A stretch of 64,000 nt of DNA from the NCBI RefSeq assembly GCF_020885975.1, contig NZ_AP025183.1, positions 2,108,001-2,172,000 of the forward strand, given 5' to 3'. Each line of letters opens with the position of its first letter. The first letter of the stretch is position 1. This document shows positions 33,968 to 41,365 of the stretch, one piece after another. The notes beneath the pieces were generated by a model, which made no database searches, was not told the DNA's origin, and was given only the letters and a program-made list of their open reading frames with translations. This DNA comes from Flavobacterium ammonificans. Its GTDB lineage: Bacteria > Bacteroidota > Bacteroidia > Flavobacteriales > Flavobacteriaceae. A program made the translations under genes and the position numbers.

Positions 33968-33973
33968 CAAAAG

Positions 33974-34081
33974 AAAGGCGACGACATACTCTCCCACATA
34001 ACTGCAGTACCATCTGCGCAGGCGGGCTTAACTACTCTGTTCGGGATGGGAAGAGGTGAGCCCCGCCGCAATAACCACCTT
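33974..34081 (-). rRNA. rrf: 5S ribosomal RNA
   Basis: On the minus strand the RNA starts AAGGTGGTTATTGCGGCGGG, continues with the CCAUCCCGAACAG loop typical of 5S (CTTCCCATCCCGAACAGAGT) and ends GTCGTCGCCTTT. About 108 nt, last gene of the operon, 182 bp after the 23S. Ends estimated from helix I pairing. Confidence 0.95.
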
Positions 34082-34177
34082 AAGATTATTGTTGGCGGTT
34101 GTTGGTTTTTGGTTGTTGGTGTTTCCATCAACTACCAACCATCAACTATCAACTGCAGCTTCGCTGCAAATATCTTA

Positions 34178-34198: not shown

Positions 34199-34263
34199 TA
34201 ATTAGAAAATTTCTCCCCTCCTTCCCCTGAGGTGACTCGAAGGGAGGAGGGAAAACGTACATA

Positions 34264-37140
<2,877 letters not shown>

Positions 37141-37216: not shown

Positions 37217-37235
37217 TTTTCTTATCTCAATATGT
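37217..37235. repeat. 23S processing-stem arm, 5' side
   Basis: TTTTCTTATCTCAATATGT, complementary to the sequence at 34178-34198 across the whole 23S gene. The adjoining TCAATATGTC (37227-37236) is repeated in the 16S leader. Confidence 0.55.
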
Positions 37236-37324
37236 CAATGAACGTTAAACTAGTGTGCAGTATTCAGATTTTAGTATTCAGTTACTACTGATCACTAAGT
37301 CCTGTGGACTGTCCACTGTTTTTG

Positions 37325-37702: not shown

Positions 37703-39220
<1,518 letters not shown>

Positions 39221-39313
39221 ATATTATGCGAAGCAAATAAATTTACTTCTATGTATTATGACAATGATCTAATGGTCTTTTTCGAATCTTACGATTCTAT
39301 TACTCTTTAATTT

Positions 39314-39335
39314 GTTTTGAGATCTCTCTCAAAAC
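39314..39335 (-). other. 16S leader hairpin
   Basis: GTTTTGAGA-TCTC-TCTCAAAAC, a perfect 9-bp stem in the leader between the nearest promoter and the 16S start. It could take part in processing or antitermination. Confidence 0.5.
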
Positions 39336-39401
39336 GGCTGTCAATTCAATATGTCTAGGAACGTGTCTTTTTTATTTGTCGCTTATCTCTCAAAGCGGGT
39401 G

Positions 39402-39431
39402 CAAAAGTACAACTTCTTTTTTATCTCGCAA
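39402..39431 (-). promoter_or_regulatory. rRNA promoter P1
   Basis: On the minus strand: TTG-N19-TACTTTTG (-33 at 39431-39429, -7 at 39409-39402). The start point is expected near 39395, giving a leader of about 175 nt before the 16S. Confidence 0.8.
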
Positions 39432-39529
39432 GTATTATTAAAAGTTTTTTTAAGAAAAATTACTTTCGTTTTACTTACTCAATATATTCAAGAACTTGTC
39501 CCCTTTTCGGCCCCGAATTAATCGGGGGG

Positions 39530-39559
39530 CAAAGATAATTACTTTTTTATCTATAGCAA
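39530..39559 (-). promoter_or_regulatory. rRNA promoter P2
   Basis: Minus strand TTG-N19-TATCTTTG (-33 at 39559-39557, -7 at 39537-39530), with the same spacing as the two neighbours. Confidence 0.75.
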
Positions 39560-39641
39560 ATTTTTTAAAGTAAAATTTCTTTTATCTTATTTAGGTTTGC
39601 TTTTCAATATTGAAGTAAGAACGTCTGCTTTATTGCGGGTG

Positions 39642-39671
39642 CAAAAGTACAACCTAAATCCGCTTTGGCAA
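39642..39671 (-). promoter_or_regulatory. rRNA promoter P3
   Basis: Minus strand TTG-N19-TACTTTTG (-33 at 39671-39669, -7 at 39649-39642). The 19 bases GCGGGTGCAAAAGTACAAC (39635-39653) are identical to those around P1, pointing to duplication. Confidence 0.8.
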
Positions 39672-39940: not shown

Positions 39941-40011
39941 TTGTTATTGAACTTGGAATGTTGAATAACGAATTTTCAATTTTGAACTTTGAAATTATTA
40001 TTGAAGTTCAA

Positions 40012-40105
40012 CCCGCGTTAGGGATAGCAGCGACATCCTTTTTAAAAGGAGACCGAGGAACTCGAAGTCACATTTTAAAAAGATAGAGCGAATAGCCCGA
40101 CCTGA
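40012..40105 (+). repeat. REP-like dispersed element, copy 2
   Basis: Ends GGATAGCAGCG and AGAGCGAATAGCCCGAC correspond to those of the element at 29307-29362 in the opposite orientation, with a different middle (ATCCTTTTTAAAAGGAGACC). Typical of short dispersed elements with conserved termini. Confidence 0.5.
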
Positions 40106-40173
40106 AAGGGAACGCCCCACTTCGACAAGCTCAGTGTAAACAATTATTTATTCGAAGTGAATGAATTAGTAAA

Positions 40174-41298
40174 CTAGACGGCAGCCAAAACCTCAATTAA
40201 ATAATCGATATCTTCCTTAGTATTATAATGACTGAAAGAAATGCGTAAACTTGGCTTTGCCAAATCATCTGAACAAAGAATTTCTGTTAAGACATGGGAA
40301 GTACTAGTACTCCCTGACTGACAAGCACTTCCGCGCGAAACAGCTATCCCTTTCATATCTAAATGAAACAACAACATAGCTGCCTTGTCATCTGGAAGCG
40401 GCAGAACAACATTAATAATATTATAAAAACCATTTTCTGAACCAATAATTTTAGATTCAGGAAATACTTGAGCCAATTGACTAACACAATAGCGCTTTAA
40501 ATCTAAAATAGCCGCTCTCTCGACCTCTAAACTTGCATACGCCATCTCCAAAGCTTTTGCCATTCCTGCAATTTGGTATACCGATTCGGTACCTCCACGC
40601 ATTCCCTTTTCTTGTTCACCACCAAAAAGCAAGGGCTGTAATCCAGAATTTTTACGAATGAAAGCAAATCCAATTCCTTTTGGACCATGAAACTTATGGG
40701 CACTGGCAGAAATAAAATCAATAGGCAAAGCTTTTAAATCAATTTCCGTCTTACCAACAGATTGAACGGTATCCGAATGAAAAAGGGCATTGTGTTCTTT
40801 GCAGATAGTTACAACTCGTTCTAAATCCAACACCACTCCTACTTCATTGTTCACATGCATCAAACTCACTAAAGTTTTAACCTCTTGCGAAAGCAATTCG
40901 GCTAAATGCGTCATATCAATGCTGCCATCCGATTTTATGTTTACAAAATCAACTTGGATGCCAAATTCATTTTGCAAAGCCAAAACAGGATACAATACTG
41001 CATGATGTTCTATTTTAGTGGTAATAATTCGCTTAACCTTTAAATCTCTTACCGCTGAACGTAAAATCCAGTTGTTAGCTTCAGTTCCCGAAGATGTAAA
41101 AAAGATTTCTGAACCTACCACATTAAGTTGTTTTGCAATTGACTTACGAGCAAGTTCCAAAGCACTTTTGGCATTACGCCCAAAACTATGTGTAGAGGAA
41201 GGATTTCCGTAATCTTCAGTCATTAATCTTGTAATCTCTTGGATTACTTCGGGGCGAATTGCAGTGGTAGATGCGTTGTCTAAATATACTTTCTTCAT
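40174..41298 (-). CDS. Cysteine desulfurase (NifS/IscS family)
   Basis: A 374-aa PLP enzyme that takes sulfur from L-cysteine, giving alanine and an enzyme persulfide. PLP-binding Lys202 in ASAHKFHGPKGIG and the persulfide Cys326 in SACQSGS are present, and the start is MKKVYLDNASTT. I set the start at ATG 41298, as the upstream extension lacks family sequence. It is single in its unit and no iscU or sufBCD gene is adjacent, so the sulfur recipient cannot be read from context. Confidence 0.92.
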   Translation of the reverse strand: MKKVYLDNASTTAIRPEVIQEITRLMTEDYGNPSSTHSFGRNAKSALELARKSIAKQLNVVGSEIFFTSSGTEANNWILRSAVRDLKVKRIITTKIEHHAVLYPVLALQNEFGIQVDFVNIKSDGSIDMTHLAELLSQEVKTLVSLMHVNNEVGVVLDLERVVTICKEHNALFHSDTVQSVGKTEIDLKALPIDFISASAHKFHGPKGIGFAFIRKNSGLQPLLFGGEQEKGMRGGTESVYQIAGMAKALEMAYASLEVERAAILDLKRYCVSQLAQVFPESKIIGSENGFYNIINVVLPLPDDKAAMLLFHLDMKGIAVSRGSACQSGSTSTSHVLTEILCSDDLAKPSLRISFSHYNTKEDIDYLIEVLAAV

Positions 41299-41365
41299 GA
41301 AGGCAAATTTATAAAATATCTTTATAAATAGTACGAAGGCAATCATTAAATATCGATTTTTTGAC

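Follow-up and report, generated by a model that had tools for sequence, protein, structure and literature searches.

Putative tandem stable-RNA promoters, each followed by a boxA-like site, in an rRNA leader of Flavobacterium

Does the DNA upstream of this 16S rRNA gene hold three consecutive promoters, and are these promoters of a general kind or of a kind belonging to stable RNA genes? We addressed this question in the window (the whole 64,000-nucleotide stretch analysed) together with the rest of the genome, its relatives and a sample of the phylum; the observations concern sequence, copy number, genome-wide specificity, conservation and covariation. The operon is complete and lies on the minus strand, in the order 16S-tRNA-Ile-tRNA-Ala-23S-5S with both tRNAs between 16S and 23S, and is one of three rRNA operons in the genome. 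A pattern drawn from its P3 leader matched three named records, each of them Flavobacterium, in support of that genus. Its upstream neighbour at 40174-41346 (-) encodes a class-V aminotransferase family protein (PF00266, E 6.5e-76), presumably a cysteine desulfurase. A Flavo-1 RNA (RF01705, 50.8 bits; 40007-40106, +) is encoded on the opposite strand, just upstream of the rRNA promoters; a study of F. psychrophilum came upon no real clue as to what it does (PMC9723704).

The explanation that we favour, and consider probable, is that the leader carries tandem stable-RNA promoters, each followed by its own boxA-like site. The 300 bp would then contain three sigma-A promoters in succession, all serving the rRNA operon and termed P1, P2 and P3 from distal to proximal.

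Promoters and RNA elements of the leader

The three exact matches to TTG-N19-TAnnTTTG that an earlier note had read on the minus strand, with -7 boxes at 39409, 39537 and 39649, are present as described, and so are the 19 bases (GTTGTACTTTTGCACCCGC) common to P1 and P3. From box start to 16S start the distances are 429 nt (P1), 317 nt (P2) and 189 nt (P3). All three rRNA operons of the genome have the trio with its 19-nt spacers, and every site has the -7 box and the TTG near -33 of Bacteroidetes sigma-A promoters. The absence of G from positions 3 and 4 of all three boxes agrees with the revised form TAHHTTTG (PMC6847099). The sites recur in 3/3 operons, and most relatives have one to three such promoters. 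Their description as a Flavobacterium trio of rRNA promoters, tandem and of the Bacteroidetes sigma-A type, is upheld. P1, P2 and P3 are almost certainly rRNA promoters; that at least one of them works is a near certainty, and that all three do is very likely.

Table 1. Features of the rRNA operon and its leader, in positions of the window
Feature	Position	Strand	Remark
Promoter P1 (distal)	39642..39671	(-)	TTG 39671-39669, N19, -7 box TACTTTTG 39649-39642; same in 3/3 operons
P1 GC-rich predicted discriminator/start region, CACCCGC	39635..39641	(-)	
boxA-like element 1, GTTCTTACTTCAATATTGA	39604..39622	(-)	after P1
Promoter P2 (middle)	39530..39559	(-)	TTG 39559-39557, N19, -7 box TATCTTTG 39537-39530
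P2 longer GC-rich stretch, CCCCCCG	39529-39523	(-)	directly after -7 box
Hairpin near expected 5' end of P2 transcript	39511..39527	(-)	z -0.30, no better than GC-rich-segment shuffles
boxA-like element 2, GTTCTTGAATATATTGA	39479..39495	(-)	one mismatch to pattern; present in 3/3 operons
Promoter P3 (proximal)	39402..39431	(-)	TTG 39431-39429, N19, -7 box TACTTTTG 39409-39402
P3 GC-rich predicted discriminator/start region, CACCCGC	39395..39401	(-)	
Predicted hairpin, expected 5' end of P3 transcript, CGCTTTGAGAGATAAGCG	39380..39397	(-)	z -1.93; 10/200 shuffles fold as well
boxA-like element 3, GTTCCTAGACATATTGA	39346..39362	(-)	exact match to pattern
Leader strand a of leader-trailer helix, TTGAATTGACAGC	39337..39349	(-)	overlaps end of boxA-like element 3
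Leader hairpin 2, GTTTTGAGAGAGATCTCAAAAC	39314..39335	(-)	helix kept while sequence changes in relatives
Leader strand b of leader-trailer helix, AGAGTAATA	39298..39306	(-)	
16S rRNA gene	37705..39220	(-)	RF00177
Trailer strand, TATTACTCTTGCTGTTAGTTCAA	37600..37622	(-)	complementary to leader strands a and b; read by eye
boxA-like element in spacer before 23S, GTTCATTGACATATTGA	37227..37243	(-)	
23S rRNA gene	34257..37137	(-)	
5S	33973-34082		in same operon

The earlier note did not mention the boxA-like element that follows each promoter. GTTCTT...ATATTGA, or a close form of it, stands 27 nt from the box start at P1, 42 nt at P2 and 47 nt at P3. The pattern GTTCNTNNACATATTGA has six exact matches in the genome, three in the leaders and three in the spacers before 23S, which is the distribution looked for in a boxA: a conserved element in both places. 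One mismatch adds the three P2 elements and two other sites, one at 76514 over an ORF on the opposite strand and one at 640264 in a 701-bp piece without a complete ORF of at least 100 codons. At two mismatches 36 more matches appear, largely background (the reversed control gives 12 in all). Element 1 is missed by the pattern because it is two bases longer than the others.

The pattern was also found in relatives. Nine other genomes yielded 14 matches, in six of them, and 12 of the 14 precede 16S or 23S. Across the phylum sample of 99 genomes the spacer form matched 23 times, in 15 genomes, against 1 match for the control; 17 of the matches lie within 217 nt before 23S, two are cut short by contig ends and four were left unassigned. 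No exact match was found in the other 84 genomes. Of the 64 distinct box sites, 53 have a GTTCNT in the 90 nt that follow and 11 have none there; shuffles give 3.0 such sites on average and 9 at most. We report this count as an enrichment and attach no p-value to it, because neighbouring boxes can share an element and the species are related. The genome encodes a NusB family protein (PF01029 match above cut-off).

Position and resemblance suggest a boxA function, and we judge it probable that the GTTC elements are boxA. The RNA element after each promoter (GTTCnT...ATATTGA) would recruit NusB-S10, so that the polymerase becomes resistant to termination soon after entering the untranslated operon. 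The further copy before 23S would renew that resistance. The last leader copy overlaps, at its end, the strand on the leader side of the 16S leader-trailer helix.

That helix and leader hairpin 2 were followed in the relatives. The hairpin has 7-10 pairs in 15 genus leaders, and at each of ten positions between 3 and 6 kinds of pair occur. The 15 were chosen from 23 distinct leaders for having the hairpin form (L015, L025, L027, L028, L053, L055 and L056 are without it, and L043 is close to L010), and the stem taken was the best with a 4-base loop, a choice that leans towards pairing. The leader GAGTAA was present in 16/16 genus loci examined; at 15 of these an automatic match, whose pattern admitted loosened forms, found the complementary trailer strands, and those of L041 were read by hand. 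In L028 the leader strand has changed to TTAACAAA and the trailer has changed with it, to TTTGTTAA. It is on these conserved complementary strands that the helix rests, in place of long-range duplex prediction, which was abandoned: it returned diffuse pairings mixed with tRNA sequence, at energies near those of shuffles in several genomes (L014, L016 and L022 among them). With the covarying hairpin and the leader-trailer helix, the pre-16S leader is an ordinary one. Of the hairpins at the expected 5' ends, considered as candidates for boxB, only that of P3 is suggestive (z -1.93), against z -0.30 at P2 and none evident by eye after P1.

It is conceivable that the GTTC...ATATTGA repeats are RNA-processing or r-protein contacts, or just the leader strand of the leader-trailer helix, given that the P3 copy overlaps the strand that pairs with the trailer. 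We think this unlikely: similar elements follow P1 and P2 and precede 23S, the leader-trailer pairing of 16S does not include GTTCnT, and placement in the leader and the pre-23S spacer agrees with that of boxA in E. coli (PMC10250234).

GC-rich stretch and stable-RNA promoters

P1 and P3 share the GC-rich CACCCGC, which we loosened to CANYCGC after inspection of relatives. In the whole genome TAnnTTTGCANYCGC has 18 matches, against 1 for the reversed control. Six of them, the P1 and P3 copies of the three operons, are there by construction, since the motif was derived from them; the other 12 form an independent test, and all of them lie directly before tRNA genes or clusters, with none elsewhere. 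The genome has 28 tRNA clusters outside rRNA operons: the strict motif precedes 12 of these (11 with TTG at 19 nt) and was not found at 16, while some TAnnTTTG lies within 130 nt of 22 clusters and none within that distance of 6. The -7 box of strict-motif promoters reads TACTTTTG in 6/6 rRNA P1/P3 and TATATTTG in 8/12 tRNA promoters of this genome.

P2 falls outside the strict motif. Among distinct rRNA-leader TAnnTTTGC sites with TTG, 53/55 have at least five G/C among the 7 nt that follow the box. The first of the seven, a C, is set by the search pattern itself, and the window background is 35% GC. The 5 nt after 17 candidate mRNA boxes in the window are 22% G/C; these boxes were discarded as a promoter set, being probably mostly chance, and 0/17 have TTG at 19. 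The earlier note had proposed the trio as a good reference set for the general sigma-A consensus. It is not a good one for that purpose, because it stands for a special, stable-RNA class: the promoters have TTG at 19 nt, and P1 and P3 also the CANYCGC stretch, which in this genome follows the box only at rRNA and tRNA genes (18/18).

Seven relatives gave 97 matches to TAnnTTTGCANYCGC against 1 in the control. Thirty of these loci were fetched, and 27 lie before stable RNA genes (13 rRNA and 14 tRNA). The three that do not are L147:1501-1515 (-), L152:1501-1515 (+) and L157:1501-1515 (-). L157 has a terminator-like ACTCAGTCATTATTTGACTGAGTTTT about 94 nt from the motif start and could therefore be a short unannotated RNA; a second Flavo-1 RNA lies near this motif match.

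We then looked at 99 genomes of the phylum, this one included. Nine of the same family have 15-26 matches each (control, 0-2), and G038, of another family of the order, has 18; genomes outside the family mostly have 0-3, with 6-11 in five (G053, G076, G129, G094, G121). In the 27 phylum-sample rows examined, stable RNA follows the motif in 7/8 of the family, 5/12 of the class outside the family (with the order counted in) and 0/7 beyond the class; L187 and L194 fell outside the position filter of the locus classification. On these per-genome counts and stable-RNA fractions we place the motif signature at family level, fading outwards, and reject the strict motif as a phylum-wide rule. Order-level relatives (L031-L038) have other GC-rich stretches after their rRNA-leader boxes.

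The start sites of P1-P3 are predicted places. The gap between box and start in probable F. johnsoniae promoters is 4 or 5 nt (PMC6847099), so the expected start lies 5-6 nt after the box and not 6-8 nt, as the earlier note had it. With such a gap the GC-rich stretch, which occurs between box and predicted start at both rRNA and tRNA promoters, would cover the discriminator and the first bases. P1 and P3 would belong to a stable-RNA promoter class that also serves many tRNA genes. Its members combine a TAnnTTTG -7 box with a TTG placed about 19 nt away, near -33, and with CANYCGC over the discriminator and first transcribed bases; P2, whose GC-rich stretch is longer, would be a sister form. 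We lean towards the GC-rich stretch being a functional discriminator, and by analogy with discriminators elsewhere it may confer sensitivity to growth state. A DksA/TraR-type zinc-finger domain has a single match in the genome (G000:C1:807899-807985), in a 128-aa open frame, and the protein is a candidate partner for discriminator control.

Alternatively, the CANYCGC stretch might serve the RNA, through a 5'-end hairpin or stability, and not promoter opening or growth control. Folding does place a hairpin at the expected 5' end of P3 transcripts in the window copy, and single-sequence folding, run without a control, predicts it in the leaders folded. We doubt this alternative, as CANYCGC also occurs at 12 tRNA promoters and at P1, which has no clear 5' hairpin by eye, and, with the F. 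johnsoniae gap, the start should come only after its first four bases (PMC6847099).

Tandem arrangement, spacing and chance

For loci of the genus and the order we collected as much as 900 nt of sequence preceding 16S, several loci being cut by contig ends; no promoter is visible for this reason in L011, L021, L029 and L030, L013 shows none, and L047 was left out of the comparison for want of a 16S anchor. Most relatives have one to three promoters of the TTG-N-TAnnTTTG kind in the rRNA leader. In 36 leaders with 520 nt available, four loci being entered twice, there were three promoters in 15, two in 12, one in 7 and none in 2 (L013 and L035). Tandem promoters of the same orientation are conserved between operons (3/3) and between species (27/36 leaders with two or three).

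The earlier note had treated the equal 19-nt spacing as a notable fact and an argument against chance. However, 19 is the usual value of the class, found in 11/12 strict-motif tRNA promoters, and it varies in relatives. The genus, with this genome counted in, gave 42 distinct rRNA promoters that have a TTG 15-24 nt ahead of the box, and the spacing is 19 in 28, 20 in 10 and 21 in 4 of them; seven further box sites have no TTG in that range. It is 19 in 24/30 promoters with a short GC-rich stretch and 20 or 21 in 8/11 with a longer one, typically the middle promoter, and two of the three exceptions are this genome's own P2; the one remaining promoter fits neither form. On these counts the equal spacing here is the common value together with a middle promoter that also happens to be at 19, and we dropped it as evidence in itself. 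Middle promoters have a longer putative discriminator and, in relatives, a spacing that is mostly 20-21 nt; they may form a second class under different regulation.

The tandem arrangement could also have arisen by duplication of a promoter-leader block, with only one or two boxes initiating and the rest relics. The 19 bases common to P1 and P3 and the varying promoter number in the leaders would suit such a history. A recent duplication is nevertheless unneeded, and was rejected as the source of the common bases, because their core recurs at unlinked tRNA genes. Moreover, the -7 boxes, TTGs and GC-rich stretches of all three promoters are intact in 3/3 operons, and distal promoters retain box and GC-rich stretch in many relatives. 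We consider relics quite improbable.

The pattern scan found TTG-N19-TAnnTTTG seven times in the window on both strands, against a mean of 2.26 per 64 kb in 100 window shuffles, of which three reach seven. This total is only mildly above chance. Three of the seven lie on the rRNA strand within 270 bp upstream of 16S, and chance is not expected to give three same-strand matches there; the other four are scattered. Single pattern matches mean little, because the genome has 170 against 74 for the reversed pattern, but chance sites in AT-rich DNA can hardly account for the trio, with its clustering, its recurrence in 3/3 operons and in relatives, its GC-rich stretch and its conservation.

Implications and comparison with known systems

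Tandem stable-RNA promoters with boxA-like sites thus remain our preferred reading. A tentative extension, quite possible in our view, is that Flavobacteria have a CANYCGC-discriminator class common to rRNA and tRNA genes, and leaders built of repeated promoter-plus-boxA cassettes. If this were true, polymerases from every tandem promoter would be termination-resistant within about 50 nt of the start. Within the genus a short motif finds the promoters of rRNA and tRNA genes with few false matches, which makes them a direct experimental target; the promoter-boxA leader is a plausible handle on the control of ribosome production in these bacteria, and the boxA-like elements would bring antitermination within experimental reach in Flavobacterium. 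In the literature searched, with most subscription journals outside its coverage, we found neither an rRNA/tRNA-specific discriminator nor an rRNA boxA in Flavobacterium, and no description of a boxA-like element after every tandem promoter. The link of ribosome synthesis to growth in Bacteroidetes, which have an unusual sigma factor, was not covered by the literature found.

Stringently controlled stable-RNA promoters of E. coli have GC-rich discriminators between the -10 box and the start. The promoters described here are like them in having a GC-rich stretch between box and predicted start that is common to rRNA and tRNA promoters, and unlike them in its letters and in the sigma factor; the likeness is one of sequence. 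The letters of the E. coli boxA, GCTCTTT, also differ from the GTTCnT of the boxA-like elements here.

Compared with other Bacteroidetes sigma-A (sigma-ABfr) promoters, for which the -33/-7 consensus is TTTG/TANNTTTG, the -7 boxes of the trio fit and the TTG is near -33 (PMC6847099, PMC7366714). The -33 motif is described as 'much less evident' in the F. johnsoniae promoter set (PMC6847099), whereas the trio has TTG at 19 nt. P1 and P3 further differ from that set in carrying CANYCGC, here restricted to stable RNA genes. A start-site study of F. psychrophilum discusses sigma-A motif subtypes SM1-3 (PMC9723704).

The boxA of E. coli, found downstream of rrn P2 and again ahead of 23S, is sufficient for recruiting antitermination factors (PMC10250234). 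The Flavobacterium leader resembles E. coli rrn P1/P2 in its tandem promoters and in a boxA-like element in the leader and before 23S, and again in that a strand of the leader-trailer helix comes shortly after that element (PMC10250234). The two differ in boxB, which is unproven here, the 5' hairpin being variable and not evident after P1. E. coli rrn has one boxB-boxA-boxC leader set, after P2, whereas here an element follows each of the three promoters.
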